From Arthrobacter saudimassiliensis (GTDB lineage: Bacteria; Actinomycetota; Actinomycetes; Actinomycetales; Micrococcaceae), in assembly GCA_900016675.1 (NCBI GenBank), contig LN483070.1, positions 1,240,001-1,304,000 on the forward strand: DNA of 64,000 nt. The letters run 5' to 3'. The notes under the pieces were generated by a model. That model did no database searches and was not told the DNA's origin. It saw only the letters and a program-made list of their open reading frames with translations. A program made the position numbers and the translations under genes. This document shows positions 33,583 through 55,532 of the stretch, piece by piece; the stretch's first letter is position 1, and the number at the start of each line of letters is the position of its first letter.

Positions 33583-33933
33583 CTAGTTCCACATGGTGGC
33601 CAGCGCAACGTTGACCACGGTGAGGATCCCGACGCCGTTGGCCAGGCCCTTGCCGACGGGCTGGTCCTTCTTGTGGCGGCGCTGGCCGATGAAGGCCATG
33701 ACGGCGATGACCAGGGCAATCAGGAGCTTGACGCCCACCTTCATGTGGTTGACAGCGCCGTCGCCCATCTCGTTCAGGCCCACGAGCAGGATGCCGGTCA
33801 CCAGCTGCAGCAGTGCGGCGTGGAACTGGCCGGGGACCACGGTGGGGTTCTTGATGCGGGCAATCCAGAGGCCGACGATGAGGCCGGCACCGAGGATGTG
33901 CAGGAAGACAAGGAAGCTGTGAAGGAAGTCCAT
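33583..33933 (-). CDS. Four-helix small membrane protein of unknown function
   Basis: 116 residues with four predicted transmembrane segments at roughly 4-24, 36-54, 66-85 and 94-113. Several potential ligands occur: His5 in FLHSF, His12 in FLHILG, His39 in QFHAAL and His63 in VNHMK, a spacing compatible with a haem or metal protein, but no family signature is recognised. A basic loop QRRHKKDQ separates helices 3 and 4. It is monocistronic, with its own terminator, a TAAGCT -10 hexamer 6 nt before the ATG, and the same TTCTAC-N5-GTAGAA operator found before cydA. Confidence 0.8.
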   Translation of the reverse strand: MDFLHSFLVFLHILGAGLIVGLWIARIKNPTVVPGQFHAALLQLVTGILLVGLNEMGDGAVNHMKVGVKLLIALVIAVMAFIGQRRHKKDQPVGKGLANGVGILTVVNVALATMWN

Positions 33934-33985: not shown

Positions 33986-34002
33986 TTCTACAACACGTAG
34001 AA
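33986..34002. promoter_or_regulatory. TTCTAC-N5-GTAGAA operator (distant copy)
   Basis: TTCTACAACACGTAGAA is a 17-bp inverted repeat with perfect 6-bp arms, identical in its arms to the three sites between blaI and cydA. It is the only other copy I found in the window, and it lies in the upstream region of the 33583-33933 membrane-protein gene. Confidence 0.7.
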
Positions 34003-47813: not shown

Positions 47814-48782
47814 TCAGCGCCAGGGCACCAGCTGGGGTGCAAGCAGCAGGACGGTGGGAACCGCAACCAGCGCCAGGGCCGCCAGCAGCACCAGGGCCCG
47901 CTGCCAGGCCGCCAGCGGCGGCCGGGGAGTCAGCAGCCGGCCCAGCCGGCGTGCGGCGTCCACCGGTTCCGAGGACTGTGCTCCGCCGAGCGCGGGCGGG
48001 CCGTCGGGAGCGGTGTCGGGCGGCAGCGGCGCCGAGCCGTTCGCGACGAGGGCCAGCGCCCGCACCATGGTGGGCCGGTCCACTTCACGCAGCGCCTCGT
48101 CGTCGGCGAGCATTTCTATGAGTTCATGCACGGCCTGCTGGGCCAGCTGCGACGTCGGCAGCCAGGGCAGGGCGGCCCGCCAGGCGGCGAACGCCCAGAG
48201 CAGCAGGTGGTGGCGCTGCAGCAGGTGGGCGCGTTCATGCGTGAGGACGGCCTGGAGCTCGCCCGGGGTCAGCATCTCCAGCAGCCCGTCGGACAGGACC
48301 GTGACGGCGCGGCCGCCCCCGGGCAGGCAGTAGGCCACGGGCGCGGCATAGGGCACGACCACCGTCGCGCCGTAGTCGGGGGAGGGGGAGCTGAGCAGCT
48401 GCAGCATGGAGCGGTGGCGCCGCCGATCCCTGGTGATGCGGTAGTACGTGAGCAGCAGCGTAAAGACCAGATGCGCACCCAGCAGCAGCGCGGCGCTGAG
48501 GGCGAAGACGTGGACCAGGCCCAGCGTGGTGGCCGGCTCGCCGTGGATCAGGATGCCCCACAGGCTGCGGAAGGCCGCCGGCAGGTTCCCGCCGAGCGGC
48601 TCGAGGCCCCAGGTGAGCATGGCGCCGATCATGGACAGGCCGCCGGCCAGCGCGATCGCCTGCCACAGCACCAGGGCGGCAAACGGGGACCGGGCGGTCC
48701 AGGCGGCCCGGGACAGCAGGATCGGCACGGGCCAGGCCAGGACGATGGCCAGGGCGGCCAGCAGGTAGGAGGCCAGGAACAC
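47814..48782 (-). CDS. M56 (BlaR1-type) membrane metalloprotease without sensor domain
   Basis: 322 residues. Transmembrane helices lie at about 3-23, 36-58, 88-112 and 297-318. The protease motif is HERAH at 182-186, followed by HELIEMLADDEALR, the distal Glu/Asp block. BlaR1 and MecR1 use this domain to inactivate BlaI/MecI after beta-lactam binding, but this protein stops after the fourth helix and has no penicillin-binding domain. GTG start 12 bp after blaI on the same strand, so the two are an operon. Its signal is unknown. Confidence 0.9.
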   Translation of the reverse strand: MFLASYLLAALAIVLAWPVPILLSRAAWTARSPFAALVLWQAIALAGGLSMIGAMLTWGLEPLGGNLPAAFRSLWGILIHGEPATTLGLVHVFALSAALLLGAHLVFTLLLTYYRITRDRRRHRSMLQLLSSPSPDYGATVVVPYAAPVAYCLPGGGRAVTVLSDGLLEMLTPGELQAVLTHERAHLLQRHHLLLWAFAAWRAALPWLPTSQLAQQAVHELIEMLADDEALREVDRPTMVRALALVANGSAPLPPDTAPDGPPALGGAQSSEPVDAARRLGRLLTPRPPLAAWQRALVLLAALALVAVPTVLLLAPQLVPWR

Positions 48783-48794
48783 CTGGGCGGAGCC

Positions 48795-49163
48795 CTACGG
48801 CGCGACGGCGCCGAGCAGGCGGCGCAGCGTCTGCGCCTCGCTCTCGGAGACCGAGCCGATGAACCGGGCCAGCACGGCCTCGCGGTCACTGGCGGAGCCG
48901 AGGGCCTCATGCATGAGCTCGGCGGTGTGCTCGGCCCTGGTGGTGACGGCCCGGTAGCGGTGCGGTCGGGTGTCCCGCTCACGCTCGACCAGGGACTTCT
49001 TCTCCAGCCGCGAAAGCACGGTGAGCACCGTGGTCACGGCGAGGTCCTTGCCTTCCCCGCCCCGGGCGGCGAGCTGTTCACGCAGCTCGTTGGCGGTGGC
49101 CGCTTCGGCCGAATCCCACAGCAGGTCCATCATTGCCCGCTCAAGCTCGCCGAGGGTTGCCAT
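48795..49163 (-). CDS. blaI: BlaI/MecI/CopY family repressor
   Basis: A 122-residue winged-helix repressor. The N-terminal DNA-binding domain (1-75) contains LGELERAMMDLLWDS, a recognition-helix region TTVLTVLSRLEKKSLV and the wing PHRYRAVTT. The C-terminal dimerisation helix region runs from RAEHTAELMHEAL. AAGGACGGAAG precedes the ATG. It is divergent from cydA across 265 bp holding three TTCTAC-N5-GTAGAA inverted repeats, its most likely operators. The adjacent M56 protease is its expected inactivator. Confidence 0.92.
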   Translation of the reverse strand: MATLGELERAMMDLLWDSAEAATANELREQLAARGGEGKDLAVTTVLTVLSRLEKKSLVERERDTRPHRYRAVTTRAEHTAELMHEALGSASDREAVLARFIGSVSESEAQTLRRLLGAVAP

Positions 49164-49195
49164 CTTCCGTCCTTACGTCTATCCGGTCGTGCTGT

Positions 49196-49219
49196 GTTCT
49201 GCATGTTGTTCTGCATGTT
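49196..49219. repeat. Tandem 12-bp repeat GTTCTGCATGTT upstream of blaI
   Basis: GTTCTGCATGTT occurs twice without interruption (49196-49207 and 49208-49219), 33-56 bp before the blaI start codon. It may mark the blaI promoter region. Confidence 0.85.
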
Positions 49220-49323: not shown

Positions 49324-49340
49324 TTCTACGAACCGTAGAA
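49324..49340. promoter_or_regulatory. TTCTAC-N5-GTAGAA operator 1 (cydA upstream)
   Basis: TTCTACGAACCGTAGAA, perfect 6-bp arms. It lies just upstream of the TTGACG -35 of the cydA promoter. Confidence 0.75.
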
Positions 49341-49343
49341 AAT

Positions 49344-49372
49344 TTGACGCACGTGTTCTACGATCTGTAGAA
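49344..49372 (+). promoter_or_regulatory. Predicted cydABDC promoter
   Basis: TTGACG at 49344-49349 is followed, after 16-18 bp, by TGTAGA/TAGAAG at 49366-49373. The spacer and -10 coincide with operator 2. The start would be near 49379. Confidence 0.5.
49356..49372. promoter_or_regulatory. TTCTAC-N5-GTAGAA operator 2 (over cydA -10)
   Basis: TTCTACGATCTGTAGAA, perfect 6-bp arms, begins 32 bp after operator 1 and covers the spacer and -10 region of the predicted promoter. Confidence 0.75.
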
Positions 49373-49380
49373 GAAGATAG

Positions 49381-49397
49381 TTCTACACAAGGTAGAA
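49381..49397. promoter_or_regulatory. TTCTAC-N5-GTAGAA operator 3 (cydA leader)
   Basis: TTCTACACAAGGTAGAA, perfect 6-bp arms, begins 25 bp after operator 2 and ends 31 bp before the cydA start codon. Confidence 0.75.
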
Positions 49398-49428: not shown

Positions 49429-51048
49429 GTGGACGCTCTAGACATCGCACGGTGGCAGTTCGGCATCACCACCGTTTACCACTTCCTCATGGTTCCCCTC
49501 ACCATCGGCCTCGGGCTGGTGGTGGCTACGCTGCAGACCGTCTGGGTCCGCACCGGCAAGGACGTATACCTGAGGATGACCAAGTTCTGGGGCAAGCTCT
49601 TCCTCATCAACTTCATCCTCGGCATCGCCACCGGACTGGTCCAGGAGTTCCAGTTCGGGCTCGCCTGGAGCGAGTACAGCCGCTTCGTGGGCGACGTGTT
49701 CGGCGCCCCGCTGGCTCTGGAATCACTGCTCGCCTTCTTCACGGAGTCCGTGTTCCTGGGCCTGTGGATCTTCGGCTGGAAGCGCCTGCCGAAGAAGATC
49801 CACCTGGCCACCATCTGGGCCGCGGTGCTGGCCTCGGTCGTCTCCGCCTACTTCATCCTCGCCGCCAACTCGTGGATGCAGCACCCCGTCGGCACGGAGA
49901 TCGTGGACGGCCGCGCCCGGCTGACCGACATCTGGGCGGTGCTCACCAACAACACCCTCCTGGTCGCCTTCCCGCACACCATTACGGGCGCCCTCGCCGT
50001 TGCCGGCGGCTTCCTGCTCGGCATCGCCTGGTACCACCTGTGGAAGCGGCGGAAGGACGGCATCGACACCGTGGACGCGTCGGGCCGCGTGGTGGTGGGC
50101 GAGGTTCCCGGCACCGGCCGTGACAAGGCCGACCACAGGGTCTGGTTCCGCTCGCTGCGGATCGGCGCCTGGATCGCCGTCATCGCCTTCGCCGGAGTCG
50201 CCGTCACCGGTGACCTCCAGGCCAAGCTGATGTTCGAGCAGCAGCCGATGAAGATGGCCGCGGCCGAATCCGCCTGCCACGACGGCACCGGCTTCTCCGT
50301 GCTCGCCGTCGGCGACGTCGGCTCCACGGACTGCAACGACGTCACCAACCTCATCGAGGTTCCGGGCCTGCTCTCCTTCCTGGCCAACGGCGACTTCAAC
50401 ACCGAGGTCAAGGGCGTCAACACCCTCATCCCGGAATACCAGGAGGCCTACGGCGAGTTCCTGCCCGAAGGCGAGATGTACGGCGACTACTCCGGTGCAC
50501 CCGTCAACTACGTGCCCGACCTTGCGGCCACCTACTGGGCCTTCCGCATCATGATCGGGTTCGGCGCCATTGCCGCCGCGGCGGCTGCCGCAGCGCTCTG
50601 GGTCACCCGGAAGGGCACGGTCCCGCAGTCCAAGTGGCTGATGCGCCTGGCCGTCTTCGGCATCCTGGCTCCCTTCGGCGCCAACGCCGCCGGCTGGGTC
50701 TTCACCGAGCTGGGCCGCCAGCCCTTCGTGGTGGCGCCCAACCCGGCCGCGCTGGCCTTCGGCGGCAACGACGGGGTCTTCATGTTCACCGCCGCCGCCG
50801 TCTCGCCGGGCGTCGAGCTGAGCGAGCTGCTCTTCTCCGTCATCGCGTTCACGCTGGTCTACTTCGCCCTGCTGGTGGTGGAGGTGCGCCTGCTGGTCAA
50901 ATTCGTCCGCGGCGGCGTGCCGTCCTCGATGCCGGGCCTGCTCCACGGCGGCGACGACGGCCCGTCCGGCGGCCTCGACTCCGCCGGCGGCGACGAGCCG
51001 GAGAACGGCCGGAAGAAGGCCGACGACGTCCTCGACTTCGCGTACTGA
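49429..51048 (+). CDS. cydA: Cytochrome bd oxidase subunit I
   Basis: 539 residues, nine predicted membrane helices. The haem-ligand His is H18 in TTVYHFLMVPLTIG, and GWVFTELGRQPFVV is the conserved block near the quinol site. The Q-loop region (around 250-355) is of the short type common in actinobacteria. It forms the quinol-oxidising, oxygen-reducing terminal oxidase with CydB. GTG start behind GAAGGAT. First gene of cydA-cydB-cydDC; control probably by the operators upstream. Confidence 0.96.
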   Translation: MDALDIARWQFGITTVYHFLMVPLTIGLGLVVATLQTVWVRTGKDVYLRMTKFWGKLFLINFILGIATGLVQEFQFGLAWSEYSRFVGDVFGAPLALESLLAFFTESVFLGLWIFGWKRLPKKIHLATIWAAVLASVVSAYFILAANSWMQHPVGTEIVDGRARLTDIWAVLTNNTLLVAFPHTITGALAVAGGFLLGIAWYHLWKRRKDGIDTVDASGRVVVGEVPGTGRDKADHRVWFRSLRIGAWIAVIAFAGVAVTGDLQAKLMFEQQPMKMAAAESACHDGTGFSVLAVGDVGSTDCNDVTNLIEVPGLLSFLANGDFNTEVKGVNTLIPEYQEAYGEFLPEGEMYGDYSGAPVNYVPDLAATYWAFRIMIGFGAIAAAAAAAALWVTRKGTVPQSKWLMRLAVFGILAPFGANAAGWVFTELGRQPFVVAPNPAALAFGGNDGVFMFTAAAVSPGVELSELLFSVIAFTLVYFALLVVEVRLLVKFVRGGVPSSMPGLLHGGDDGPSGGLDSAGGDEPENGRKKADDVLDFAY

Positions 51049-51075: not shown

Positions 51076-52092
51076 GTGACGCTTCCCACTTTGTGGTTCA
51101 TCATCATCGCCTTCCTGTGGATGGGCTATCTCTTCCTGGAAGGCTTCGACCTTGGCGTCGGCATGCTCATGAAGCTCATGGCACGCAACGACAAGGACCG
51201 CCGGGTGATGCTCAACACCATCGGCCCGGTGTGGGACGGCAACGAGGTCTGGCTGGTCACCGCCGGCGCCATGACCTTCGCCGCCTTCCCGCTCTGGTAC
51301 GCCTCGCTGTTCTCGACCCTGTACCTGCCCCTGGTGCTGGTCCTGCTCGGACTGATCTTCCGGGCGGTTGCGGTCGAGTACCGCGGCAAGCACGACGACG
51401 ACCGGTGGCGCAGCCGCTGGGACTGGGCACTGTCCCTGGGCTCCTTCGTCTCCGCGTTCGGCGTGGGCGCCGCGCTGGCGCTGACCAGCACGGGCCTGCC
51501 GCTGAACGAGAACGGCGACCGGGTGGGCGGACCGTTCGCCTGGTTCAACGGGTGGGCGGTCATCGGCGGCCTGGCCGTGGTCGGCTTCGCCCTCGTGCAC
51601 GCCCTGGCGTTCCTCATGCTCAAGACCGACGGCGAGATCCGCCTGCGGGCCCGCCGCGCCCTGGTGCGCTGGCTTCCGCTGGGCATCGCGCCGATGGCCG
51701 TCTGGGCGGTGGGCGTCAACCTGGACAGCGGCAGCCTGGCCTCGCTGGTGCTGCTCGCCGTCGCGGTGGTGGCGGTCGCCATGGCCTGGGACTTCGCCCG
51801 GCGGGAACGTGAAGGGTTCGCCTTTGCCGCCCTGGGGACGTTCCTGGTGGCCGGCGCGGCGTCGATCTTCACCGCCATGTACCCCGTGGTGCTGCCCAGC
51901 AGCCTTGACGCCGCGTGGGACCTGACGGTCCAGAACGCCTCCTCCGGCTCCTACACCCTCACCGTGATCAGCTGGGTGTCGCTGCTCGGCCTGCCCATCG
52001 TGATCCTCTACCAGGGGTGGACCTACTGGGTGTTCCGCAAGCGCGTCTCCGCGGACTCCATCCCGGCGGCCCACACCTTCAGCGCCCAGTGA
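51076..52092 (+). CDS. cydB: Cytochrome bd oxidase subunit II
   Basis: 338 residues with eight to nine membrane helices. Family features include FLWMGYLFLEGFDLGVGM at the N-terminus and VWDGNEVWLVTAGAMTFAAFP. It stabilises the haem-bearing CydA. GTG start, 27 bp after cydA. The final TGA overlaps the GTG of cydDC by 4 bp (GTGA), so the three genes are one coupled operon. Confidence 0.96.
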   Translation: MTLPTLWFIIIAFLWMGYLFLEGFDLGVGMLMKLMARNDKDRRVMLNTIGPVWDGNEVWLVTAGAMTFAAFPLWYASLFSTLYLPLVLVLLGLIFRAVAVEYRGKHDDDRWRSRWDWALSLGSFVSAFGVGAALALTSTGLPLNENGDRVGGPFAWFNGWAVIGGLAVVGFALVHALAFLMLKTDGEIRLRARRALVRWLPLGIAPMAVWAVGVNLDSGSLASLVLLAVAVVAVAMAWDFARREREGFAFAALGTFLVAGAASIFTAMYPVVLPSSLDAAWDLTVQNASSGSYTLTVISWVSLLGLPIVILYQGWTYWVFRKRVSADSIPAAHTFSAQ

Positions 52093-55000
52093 AGCCGGTC
52101 CTGCCCGTCAGTGCCGCCAGCCGCCGCGCACTGTACCTGCTGGGCCTCGTGGCCGCGGTCAAGGCCGTGGGCCTGGTGCTCCTGGCCGGCGGCGCCGCCG
52201 AGGCGATCGCCGGCCTGGCCGCCGGCGGCGTCGACTGGGCGCACGCCCTCGGCACCGGCGCGGCGGGCGCCGTGCTGCGGTCGCTGGCCATGTGGGCGCA
52301 GGAATCGGTGTCCCAGCGCGCCGCCGTCGGCGTCAAGGACGAGCTGCGGGCCCGGCTCACGGACCGCATCCTGGCCGAGGGCGGGTCCGTGCCGGGCATG
52401 GGCAACGGCGCGCTGAGCGTCCTGCTCACCCGCGGGCTGGACGGCCTGGACACCTACTACTCCAAGTACCTGCCGGCCCTGGTCACCTGCGCCGTCGTGC
52501 CCGCCCTGGTGGGCCTGCGGATCCTGGCTGCGGACTGGGTCAGCGCCGTCGTCATCGTGCTCACCGTTCCGCTGGTGCCGGTGTTCATGATCCTGATCGG
52601 GCTGCACACCGGCGACCGCACCGCCAAGGCGATCGACGCCCTGCACCGCCTCTCCGACCACATGCTGGAACTGGTCCGCGGCCTGCCCGTACTGGTGGGC
52701 CTCGGCCGCGCCCGGGCGCAGGCCCGCGCCCTGCGCGACGTCGCCGACCAGTACCGGAAGACGACGCTGCAGACCCTGCGCGTGGCCTTCCTGTCCTCGC
52801 TGGCCCTGGAGCTGATCTCGACCATCTCGGTGGCCGTGGTGGCCGTCTTCATCGGCATCCGGCTGGTCAACGGCGACATGTCCCTCGAGCTGGGCCTGCT
52901 GGCCCTCATCCTGGCCCCCGAGTGCTACCAGCCGCTGCGCGACCTCGGCACGGCCCACCACGCCAGCGAGGACGGACTGGAGGCGCTGCGGCGCACCGAC
53001 GAGGTCCTGGCGGCGCCGGCCGCCACGCCGCTGGTGCCCGCCTCCGGCGCCGGACCCGCCGCCGCCCCCCGGGACCTCACGGTCAGCGGACTGACCGTCC
53101 GCTATCCCGCCCGGGAGGGCGCCGTGGTCCAGGACCTCGGCTTCACGGTCCCCGCCGGCCGCATCGCCGCGCTCACCGGCCCCAGCGGCACCGGCAAGAC
53201 CACCGTGCTCGAGGTCCTGGCCGGCCTGCGCCGGGCCGTACCCGCCGGGGAGCCCGGCGCTGCGCCCGCTTCGTCCGACGGCACCTCCGTCATCACCGGC
53301 ACCGTGACCGGCGCGTCCGCGGCCACCACCGCCTGGATTCCGCAGCATCCGGTGCTCGTCGAGGACACCGTGGCCGCCGAAATCGCCCTCTACGCCGGCG
53401 CCGCCACAGCCGAAGCCGGACGTGCAGCCGCCGCCCAGGCGCTGGCCGACATCGACGCCGGCCACCTGATCGACGCCGCCACCGGAGACCTCAGCCCCGG
53501 CGAACAGCGCCGCGTGGCGGTGGCCCGCGCCCTGGCCCGGCTGGCGCACCGGCCGGAGGTTGCCCTGCTGCTGGCCGACGAACCCACCGCCCACCTCGAC
53601 GCCGCCAGCGCCCGCTCCGTCATCGCGGCCCTGCAGCGGCTGCGGGGGAGGGCCACGGTGCTGCTCGTGGCCCACGACGCGGCCACCGCCGCCGCGGCGG
53701 ACCTGCATATCCCGGTGCATCCGGGCGCCGCAGCGCCGGAGGTCTCCATCGTCGACCCGGCCGAAACGGTCGCCGCCTACACGGCGGCCAGCGCGGCGAC
53801 GGACATCGTCGAGGTCCCGGAGCAGGCCCCGGCCCGGCAGCCGTTCCGGCTCAACCTGCTGGTCCTGCGGCCGTGGAGCCCGCAGTTCCTGCTGGCCCTG
53901 TTCCTGGGCACGGGAGCCACGCTCTTCGCGGTCGCGCTGTCCTCGCTCTCCGGCTGGCTCATCGTCCGGGCCAGCGAACAGCCGCCGATCCTCTACCTGC
54001 TCACCGCCATCGTCGGCGTCCGCTTCTTCGGCATCGGCCGGGCCGTCCTGCGCTACCGCGAACGGCTGCACCTGCACGACGCCGTCTTCCGCGCCACCAA
54101 CGCCCTGCGGATCCGGCTCTGGAACGGACTGCTGGAGCGCCCGGCCGGCTGGCGGCGCCTGGCCCGCGGCGGCGGCGCCCTGGAACGCCTGGTCGGCGAC
54201 GTCGACGAGCTGCGCGACATCGCACCGCGGGTGGTCTTCGCCCCGATGACCGGCCTGCTGACCGCGGCGGTTGCCTGCCTCGTCACCGGGATCCTGATGC
54301 CGTCGGCCCTGCCCGGGGTCCTGCTGCTCTGCCTGTTCGGGCTGGTCCTCTCCCCGCTGCTTGCGCTGGCCGCGGACGCCGCCGCCCGGGCCCGGACCGT
54401 GCGCCTGCAGTCCTCCGCCATGGCCGCGATGGCCCGACTGCTCGCGGCCGCTCCCGACCTGGAAGCCAACGGCTCCGCCGGCCCGGTGCTGGCCCGGCAG
54501 CGCGCGCTCGAGGCGCAGGCCTCCGCCGCCGTGCGCCGCAGCGCCTGGGCCGAAGGGCTGGCCAACGCCCTCACCGCGCTGGCCTGCGCCGCCTCCGCCC
54601 TCTGGGCCTGCCTGCACACCGGCGGCACCGCGCCGTCGATCGCAGCGGTCATCATCCTCATGCAGCTGGCCCTGATCGAACCCTTCGTGGCCGTCAACGG
54701 CTCCATCCAGCAGCTCAGCGCCTGGCGCACCCTGGGGGACCGGGTACTGCCCGACCTGGGCAGCGCCGACGTCGACGATCCGCTGTCGACCCGGGACGGC
54801 GGCACCGCCGACGCCGAGTCCCATGCGGCAGCCGAAGGCCAGCCGGTCCGCACCCTGGAGCTCGCCGGCATCGGCTACCGCTACCCGGGCGCACCGGCAC
54901 CCACCCTGCAGGGCATCGACCTGACCCTGGAGCGTGGGGACTGGCTGGCCGTCACAGGGCCCTCCGGCAGCGGAAAGTCGACGCTGCTGGGCGTCCTGCT

Positions 55001-55532
55001 CGGCTTCCTGACGCCGGAGGAAGGGCGGATCCTGATCAACGGCGGCCCCGCCGACGATCTGCCCCCGGCGGCCCGCCGGATGGCCTGGTGCCCCCAGGAG
55101 GCCCACCTCTTCGACTCCACGCTGCGCGGCAACCTGCTGCTGGCACGCGACCGCGGGCACGCCCCCACGGAGCCGGAGCTGGAGCAGGCGCTGCAGGCAG
55201 TGGGCCTCGGCCCACTGCTCGAGCGGCTGCCCGAAGGGCTCGACACCCGGGTGGGCGCCGGCGGCCACTTCCTCTCCGGCGGCCAGCGGCAGCGCGTCGC
55301 GGTGGCCCGCGCGCTGCTCACGGACGCCGACGTCGTACTGCTGGACGAACCGACCGCGCATCTCGATGCCGACGCCGGCCGGCAGCTGATGGCCGACCTG
55401 CGCAGCGGCCTGGCCGGGCGGACCGTCGTCATGGTCACCCACAACCCGGACGACGCGGCCTGGTGTGAGCGTCGAATGCACCTGGAGCACGGCCGAATGG
55501 AGCCCCCGGCGGAGGTTCTGGCTACGCTGTAG
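52089..55532 (+). CDS. cydDC: Fused thiol-reductant ABC exporter CydDC
   Basis: 1147 residues containing two complete exporter halves. The first has membrane domain about 1-315 and an ATPase with Walker A GPSGTGKTT (K370), signature LSPGEQRRVAVARAL and Walker B LLLADEPTAHLD. The second has membrane domain about 600-870 and ATPase with GPSGSGKST (K963), signature LSGGQRQRVAVARAL and VVLLDEPTAHLD. CydDC exports cysteine/glutathione-type reductants and is needed to assemble cytochrome bd. The start at 52089 is set by the overlap with cydB. Many actinobacteria have the fused form. Confidence 0.94.
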   Translation: MKPVLPVSAASRRALYLLGLVAAVKAVGLVLLAGGAAEAIAGLAAGGVDWAHALGTGAAGAVLRSLAMWAQESVSQRAAVGVKDELRARLTDRILAEGGSVPGMGNGALSVLLTRGLDGLDTYYSKYLPALVTCAVVPALVGLRILAADWVSAVVIVLTVPLVPVFMILIGLHTGDRTAKAIDALHRLSDHMLELVRGLPVLVGLGRARAQARALRDVADQYRKTTLQTLRVAFLSSLALELISTISVAVVAVFIGIRLVNGDMSLELGLLALILAPECYQPLRDLGTAHHASEDGLEALRRTDEVLAAPAATPLVPASGAGPAAAPRDLTVSGLTVRYPAREGAVVQDLGFTVPAGRIAALTGPSGTGKTTVLEVLAGLRRAVPAGEPGAAPASSDGTSVITGTVTGASAATTAWIPQHPVLVEDTVAAEIALYAGAATAEAGRAAAAQALADIDAGHLIDAATGDLSPGEQRRVAVARALARLAHRPEVALLLADEPTAHLDAASARSVIAALQRLRGRATVLLVAHDAATAAAADLHIPVHPGAAAPEVSIVDPAETVAAYTAASAATDIVEVPEQAPARQPFRLNLLVLRPWSPQFLLALFLGTGATLFAVALSSLSGWLIVRASEQPPILYLLTAIVGVRFFGIGRAVLRYRERLHLHDAVFRATNALRIRLWNGLLERPAGWRRLARGGGALERLVGDVDELRDIAPRVVFAPMTGLLTAAVACLVTGILMPSALPGVLLLCLFGLVLSPLLALAADAAARARTVRLQSSAMAAMARLLAAAPDLEANGSAGPVLARQRALEAQASAAVRRSAWAEGLANALTALACAASALWACLHTGGTAPSIAAVIILMQLALIEPFVAVNGSIQQLSAWRTLGDRVLPDLGSADVDDPLSTRDGGTADAESHAAAEGQPVRTLELAGIGYRYPGAPAPTLQGIDLTLERGDWLAVTGPSGSGKSTLLGVLLGFLTPEEGRILINGGPADDLPPAARRMAWCPQEAHLFDSTLRGNLLLARDRGHAPTEPELEQALQAVGLGPLLERLPEGLDTRVGAGGHFLSGGQRQRVAVARALLTDADVVLLDEPTAHLDADAGRQLMADLRSGLAGRTVVMVTHNPDDAAWCERRMHLEHGRMEPPAEVLATL
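55523..55528 (+). promoter_or_regulatory. -10 hexamer TACGCT, leaderless GNAT gene
   Basis: TACGCT ends 6 nt before the ATG at 55535 and lies inside the 3' end of cydDC. A GTAGGA stretch fills the gap and is too close to act as a normal ribosome-binding site. Confidence 0.45.

Follow-up and report, generated by a model that had tools for sequence, protein, structure and literature searches.

A predicted BlaI operator shared by cytochrome bd and other respiratory and haem genes in Arthrobacter and its family

BlaI and BlaR1 form the textbook switch of penicillin resistance. In the window, by which we mean the whole stretch of 64,000 nt analysed here, a repressor gene of this type and the gene of a membrane protease diverge from the genes of cytochrome bd oxidase, and the question is whether such a switch governs a respiratory enzyme. 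The original prediction started from three exact copies of the inverted repeat TTCTACN5GTAGAA between cydA on the forward strand and the blaI and M56-type genes on the reverse strand. A sequence match located all three copies, and the gene arrangement was as described (Table 1). A fourth exact copy, overlooked at that time, precedes the gene of a 116-aa membrane protein (p116) and holds the same position before this gene in 7 of the 25 genomes chosen for the analysis of targets. The CydD- and CydC-like halves of the exporter are held by one single open frame.

Table 1. Predicted operators and genes around the blaI-cydA locus and the fourth repeat (positions in the window).
Feature	Position	Strand	Remarks
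BlaI operator site 1 (predicted)	49324..49340		TTCTACGAACCGTAGAA; exact match and family-wide link with BlaI
BlaI operator site 2 (predicted)	49356..49372		TTCTACGATCTGTAGAA; exact match and family-wide link with BlaI
BlaI operator site 3 (predicted)	49381..49397		TTCTACACAAGGTAGAA; leader, 31 bp before cydA start
Fourth exact operator (predicted)	33986..34002		TTCTACAACACGTAGAA; 53 bp before p116 gene
p116, 116-aa membrane protein, predicted target	33583..33933	-	no family found
blaI, 122 aa, Penicillinase_R repressor	48795..49163	-	PF03965, 79.4 bits (cut-off 22.6)
BlaR1-like membrane zinc protease (M56/M48 type), HERAH motif	47814..48782	-	without penicillin-binding domain
Candidate -35 element TTGACG, between sites 1 and 2	49344..49349	+	sequence; not found by the promoter scan
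cydA, cytochrome bd subunit I	49429..51048	+	PF01654, E 2.8e-149
cydB, cytochrome bd subunit II	51076..52092	+	PF02322, E 4.4e-101
Fused cydDC-like ABC exporter	52092..55532	+	two ABC_tran and two ABC_membrane stretches

The exact repeat occurs six times in the 3.55-Mb genome, against a single occurrence of a reversed control pattern, and by base composition 0.012 copies would be expected in a genome of this size and 0.0002 in the window. The two remaining copies precede hemQ, identified by its NCBIfam match, and the gene of a 139-aa membrane protein (p139). All 29 genomes of the genus carry the repeat, in 3 to 7 copies each (control 0 to 2). The site coordinates of one of these genomes (G004) agree with those of A. 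citreus DSM 20133 (L042), which identifies the genus as Arthrobacter. A chance palindrome was ruled out, since the counts in the genome, the genus and the family exceed those of the reversed control. Only one gene of the genome, blaI, was found in a profile search with PF03965. This domain covers residues 4-117 of the window BlaI, whereas the match to the NCBIfam model of CopY (TIGR02698, E 2.6e-6) reaches 27.7 bits against a cut-off of 121.95. The protein has no cysteine and therefore no CxC motif of the CopY type, and for this reason a role as a CopY-type CxC copper sensor was rejected.

Repeat counts were cross-tabulated with the presence of BlaI and CydA in 149 genomes of the window's family. 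The association of the repeat with blaI-M56 expected by the original prediction was found: at least one copy is present in 130 of the 131 genomes with BlaI and in 2 of the 18 without it, and at least two copies in 123 of the 131 against none of the 18. Genomes with BlaI hold 5.24 copies on average (control mean 0.46), and the two positive genomes without BlaI hold one copy each, the control pattern being found once in 3 of the 18. The lone genome with BlaI and no exact copy (G115) has a one-mismatch copy between blaI and cydA. Fisher's test for repeat and BlaI gave 2e-17, a value that ignores kinship, BlaI being absent in three genera (wholly in g3, in part in g6 and g15). Inside g6, a single copy is present in each of the two genomes with BlaI, and the five without BlaI have none.

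The genomes in which the two genes part company show which of them the repeat follows. All seven genomes with BlaI and no CydA match at E 1e-30 carry the repeat (15, 5, 5, 5, 9, 9 and 3 copies), and among the 11 genomes with CydA and no BlaI, ten have no copy and one has a single copy. A cydA-specific site of another regulator was rejected, since the repeat stays with BlaI where CydA was not found. As to scoring, G069 and G092 count as CydA-minus in the cross-table despite distant CydA-like frames (E about 1e-78) and lie outside the seven; the presence of BlaI in G068, G091 and G113 is based on PF03965; the BlaI match of G112 spans 70 residues only and that of G039 has an E of 2.1e-11; G168 was placed among the genomes without BlaI by elimination. 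A PF03965 search of the 18 BlaI-less genomes gave no match in 13 and partial matches at E 1.5e-4 or worse in five, three of them just above the Pfam cut-off, which we read as other winged-helix proteins.

Genus g12 looked at first like an exception and in the end supplied support. Its four genomes have CydA without an adjoining BlaI, yet an exact repeat starts 121-122 bp before cydA, from which a BlaI encoded elsewhere was predicted. In each of these genomes the PF03965 search detected a diverged, unlinked BlaI (E 1e-13 to 2e-12), of which the one in G039 had already given the weak match mentioned above; beside each of them lies a weak M56 match (27-30% identity). For the other 11 CydA-bearing genomes without BlaI, no site with fewer than three mismatches was found in the 500 bp before cydA. 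The two genes are divergent neighbours, 132-454 bp apart, in 114 of the 122 genomes scored for both, and one could suppose that an unlinked regulator binds the repeat and that blaI is merely a conserved neighbour of cydA. Binding of the repeat by BlaI is a prediction from sequence, and at least four of the eight genomes with another arrangement keep the repeat before cydA; this supposition is nevertheless scarcely credible, given that the repeat persists with BlaI in genomes without a CydA match and disappears together with BlaI, that the unlinked diverged BlaI turned up where the repeat predicted it, and that operator arms and recognition helix co-vary, as described below. The comparison of genomes, from which the pairing of operator and BlaI is drawn, strongly supports the repeat as operator of BlaI and cydA as one of its targets, and the tracking of BlaI, not of CydA, by the repeat in the 149 genomes speaks for control by BlaI. 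Four genomes that lack a CydA match carry predicted sites 54-87 bp ahead of blaI, which supports the control of blaI by its own product that had also been suggested.

The promoter proposed for cydA was confirmed only in part. TTGACG does lie 3 bp after site 1, but the case for a -10 element under site 2 is weaker than first proposed: the sole nearby candidate (TAGAAG, 49368-49373) is poor, has an 18-bp spacer and overlaps the end of site 2, and a consensus promoter scan found no promoter. As no clear promoter was found, repression is proposed by analogy. With promoter elements this weak and a direction of control that is not readable from sequence, BlaI might be thought to activate cydA instead, which we consider highly improbable because the predicted operators lie 12-54 bp before cydA in the loci examined, a blocking position, and the characterised relatives are repressors according to the relevant parts of PMC12565901, PMC5473688, PMC7253601 and PMC8457756. 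The blaI-cydA gap also contains a weak terminator-like hairpin on the forward strand (49188-49205; one found against 0.3 expected).

The predicted targets were analysed in 25 chosen genomes, namely six from the genus itself, six lacking a CydA match and one from each of 13 other repeat-bearing genera. We examined 128 of their 142 exact sites, in 111 loci; 13 of the other 14 sites lie between blaI and cydA by coordinates and one is near a contig end. Names were taken from Pfam and NCBIfam, and copies were recognised by tblastn to the named proteins. cydA is a target in all 19 chosen genomes with a CydA match (13 by locus, 6 by coordinates), followed by hemQ in 17 of the 25 genomes, flavohaemoglobin in 11, p139 in 11 and p116 in 7. 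Rarer targets are CopC (5 genomes), SufR with a divergent ABC transporter (4), PNPOx (4), ResA/TlpA-like proteins (3), small globin-like proteins (3), CopD, CtaC, CtaB, SURF1 and SdhC (2 each), QcrC (1) and hemA with hemE (1). The flavohaemoglobins score 342 and 334 bits against an NCBIfam cut-off of 432, and their globin, FAD and NAD domains pass those of Pfam. The small globin-like targets give sub-threshold Bac_globin matches (E 0.014 and 0.092), so that the label truncated haemoglobin is given by eye only. Sites mostly lie within about 120 bp of the projected start codons, and in 35 of 60 pairs of adjacent sites the starts are 24 or 25 bp from each other (45 distinct blaI or cydA loci).

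Sorted by hand, the 111 loci comprise 72 of respiratory, haem, copper or globin type (three of them counted as copper through a CopC match further downstream), one with sucC, four with blaI alone and 34 other or unassigned. From this comparison, which also underlies the target list, the predicted regulon is wider than cydA and includes hemQ and flavohaemoglobin, and in some genera ctaC, ctaB, SURF1, qcrC, sdhC and sufR. The original target set, cydABDC, was supported for cydA and too narrow in scope, as haem, flavohaemoglobin, aa3/bc1 and copper-protein genes also carry the repeat.

Several loci are recorded here as separate observations. The p116 and p139 proteins (window 33583-33933 and L006 5035-5454) are recurrent small membrane-protein targets, and neither family has a Pfam match over the cut-off or any match in NCBIfam. 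Exact sites are found about 300-370 bp from a MarR-like 155-aa gene (L089 1520; L100 1565), and between aceA (isocitrate lyase, by eye) and the gene of a 141-aa membrane protein in the g13 genomes G040 and G131 (L185, L186). Others precede genes for YceI, PNPOx, PPK2, a universal stress protein and CarD/p194 (L215, L216, L245, L254, L184, L234, L208), which have no clear tie to respiration. Profile searches gave no family name for p141 and p194. A family of membrane proteins of about 200-250 aa lies 3' of the operator in L229, L256, L259 and L267, the first three with CopC downstream.

The second component of the predicted switch is the protease of 322 aa, in which H182, E183, H186 and E223 are invariant among 12 sequences. 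Pfam places it above the cut-off for M48 (42.3 vs 20.3) and below that for M56 (22 vs 31), and phmmer against the PDB gave no match up to E 1. In its predicted model (pLDDT 87.4, pTM 0.82) the best Foldseek match is S. aureus BlaR1 (E 7.3e-4), with a TM-score of only 0.36; VIA-align to the same protein gave Z 12.0 and rmsd 5.0 over 212 residues. Ste24-type proteases rank next (Z about 10), and the class is therefore stated at the sequence level as M56/M48. The structural alignment ends at BlaR1 residue 292 (of 531-556), so that the match covers residues 1-292 at most and the penicillin-binding domain is missing; likewise, no penicillin-binding Pfam domain was found in the 322 aa. According to the model, the protease resembles a BlaR1-like fold minus the sensor domain. 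A cysteine (C152, in the segment VAYCLP) is also invariant in the 12 sequences, and the thought that it could serve redox or NO chemistry is only an idea.

Two other readings accept BlaI and its operator and differ on what is sensed. One of them holds that the signal, like that of the classical BlaI-BlaR1 pair, is cell-wall damage or beta-lactams and that the targets form an envelope-stress response. Passages of PMC5473688 state that blaI-blaR and cydAB transcripts of M. tuberculosis go up under a beta-lactam given with clavulanate, and they tie BlaI to cytochrome bd; the modelled BlaR1 fold of the protease would fit as well. We regard this as unlikely, however, because the protease has no penicillin-binding domain, because no beta-lactamase or penicillin-binding protein is named among the genes at the four genome operator loci or the 111 loci with exact sites (some neighbours being unnamed), and because flavohaemoglobin, hemQ, ctaC, ctaB, SURF1 and qcrC point toward respiration. 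The other reading, in which BlaI itself senses haem, metal or redox state without any action of the M56 protease upon it, could draw on direct copper sensing by the relative CopY (stated in the part of PMC7253601 on CopY) and on the haem and copper proteins among the targets. It is distinctly unlikely in view of the cysteine-free window BlaI and of the M56 gene, which adjoins blaI in most loci from named genomes (see below) and in 5 of 5 inspected loci from genomes without a CydA match.

In a wider set of named genomes, M56 and cydA both adjoin BlaI in 46 of 50 BlaI loci. The hosts are Arthrobacter, Cryobacterium, Ruania, Jiangella, Nocardioides, Phytoactinopolyspora and several MAGs, among them one of Dietzia and one labelled Acidobacteria. 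The operator arms are of the TTC type in Arthrobacter, Cryobacterium, Ruania and the Dietzia MAG, and of the TAC type (TACTAC or TACGAC, also with N5) in Jiangella, Nocardioides and Phytoactinopolyspora. Loss of the repeat from relatives that keep blaI, M56 and cydA had been named as evidence against control by BlaI; the exact repeat is indeed absent in these last three genera, but the gap there holds a related inverted repeat, whose differences parallel those in the recognition helix of BlaI. In an alignment of 49 BlaI rows, from which two weak non-actinobacterial matches (L085 and L086) were left out, all 28 rows with TTC-type operators combine V43, T43 or K43 with S51 or G51, and all 20 with TAC-type operators have Y43 and D51; the Nocardiopsis row (L084) has no operator. 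A metagenome locus without cydA (L065) also fits the pairing. By this comparison operator arms and residues 43 and 51 change together, and as the rows form essentially two clades the change of arm and helix may be one event.

In whole-genome searches, six Nocardioides genomes have exactly one TACTACN5GTAGTA each, assigned by its spacer to the blaI-cydA gap, and no TTC-type copy. TTC-type copies number 4 and 6 in two Arthrobacter genomes (control 1 in each) and 2 and 3 in two Cryobacterium genomes (control 1 and 2), with no TAC-type copy in any of these four; Cryobacterium MLB-32 has one extra site. One Jiangella and one Phytoactinopolyspora genome contained no exact copy of either type, their arms being mixed. 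Hardly any exact repeat outside the family lies elsewhere than between blaI and cydA, so that the wide regulon may be family-specific.

Taken as a whole, the data make it probable that BlaI represses cydABDC, its own gene and unlinked genes, and that the M56 protease inactivates BlaI upon respiratory trouble. A BlaI dimer would bind TTCTACN5GTAGAA, at three operators around and after the cydA promoter region, and would repress cydABDC, blaI and unlinked respiratory, haem and haemoprotein genes, which in this genome would be hemQ and the two small membrane-protein genes. Trouble in the aerobic respiratory chain, such as that caused by nitric oxide, low oxygen, or shortage of haem or copper, a signal guessed from the target list, would prompt the sensor-less BlaR1-like protease to inactivate BlaI, probably through cleavage. 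Bd oxidase and the haem it needs would then rise, and in many relatives flavohaemoglobin too. Both proteins, bd oxidase and flavohaemoglobin, are of benefit to cells under NO or low oxygen. We infer BlaI binding, repression as the direction of control, proteolysis of BlaI and the nature of the signal.

A broader reading, which we offer tentatively, is that actinobacteria use BlaI, together with a sensor-less M56 protease, to detect failure of the respiratory chain (NO, oxygen or haem status). The divergent blaI-M56/cydAB arrangement in Arthrobacter, Cryobacterium, Ruania, Jiangella, Nocardioides and Phytoactinopolyspora suggests that cytochrome bd is the older BlaI target. If this reading is true, the regulon has grown in the window's family to terminal oxidases, haem synthesis and NO-removing globins, and the beta-lactam role known elsewhere is one branch of a respiratory switch. 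In several actinobacterial genera, cytochrome bd has as neighbours a repressor of the penicillin-resistance type and a protease with only catalytic and membrane parts; within one family the repeat extends over genes of haem synthesis, oxidase assembly and NO defence. The operator code, in which TTC or TAC arms pair with BlaI residues 43 and 51, is a further outcome, and a predicted BlaI regulon can be obtained for each genome of the family. What the sensor-less M56 protease detects is the question raised here, for which the family offers non-pathogenic hosts, and PMC5473688 leaves the same question for mycobacterial BlaR, which lacks the beta-lactam sensor domain according to that paper.

Among the matches listed in searches of open-licence papers, we found no description of a respiratory or haem regulon of BlaI outside mycobacteria. 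The nearest solved relative of the window BlaI is 2g9w (E 9.8e-21), which we take to be M. tuberculosis BlaI (Rv1846c). The abstract of Sala 2009 reportedly lists rv1456c and rv3921c among the BlaI targets and not cydA; rv1456c presumably sits in the SufR-ABC-ctaA region and, if so, a SufR/ABC target would be common to both organisms, which is a lead only. Passages of PMC5473688, citing Sala 2009, say that M. tuberculosis BlaI binds the cytochrome bd and ATP synthase promoters, and an EMSA described in PMC12565901 has it bound to the ATP synthase operon promoter. Like the window protease, the mycobacterial BlaR has no sensor domain, and the mycobacterial BlaI is said to bind cytochrome bd promoters (PMC5473688), which tempers the earlier view that BlaR-type control of a bd oxidase would be unusual. 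The two systems differ in that the beta-lactamase gene blaC is also repressed by BlaI in M. tuberculosis (same passages of PMC5473688). In Arthrobacter and its family the blaI-M56 pair and cydAB are divergent, and the repeat is also found before hemQ, flavohaemoglobin and the genes for oxidase subunits and their assembly.

The S. aureus pairs BlaI-BlaR1 and MecI-MecR1 share the PF03965 repressor with an adjoining membrane zinc protease, but the window protease is without the penicillin-binding domain and the predicted targets are respiratory. The S. aureus-type operator of 10 bases, TACANNTGTA, taken from the consensus given in PMC7253601, was rejected for the window, where the sites (TAC-N5-GTA) have one base more between TAC and GTA. 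As a BlaI of Clostridium thermocellum has an N5 operator in the account of PMC8457756, this mismatch is compatible with membership of the BlaI family. That protein, BlaI_0696, is similar in its GTCTAT half-sites five bases apart, two operators per target and self-control, and different in its three target operons of mostly sensory genes, for which respiratory targets are not named in the relevant part of PMC8457756. CopY/CopR belong to the same repressor superfamily, but the window BlaI scores far under the CopY cut-off and is cysteine-free, and the operator spacing differs from that in the part of PMC7253601 on CopY. The link of BlaI to cytochrome bd was already stated for M. tuberculosis in PMC5473688, and the predicted family regulon and operator code are added here.
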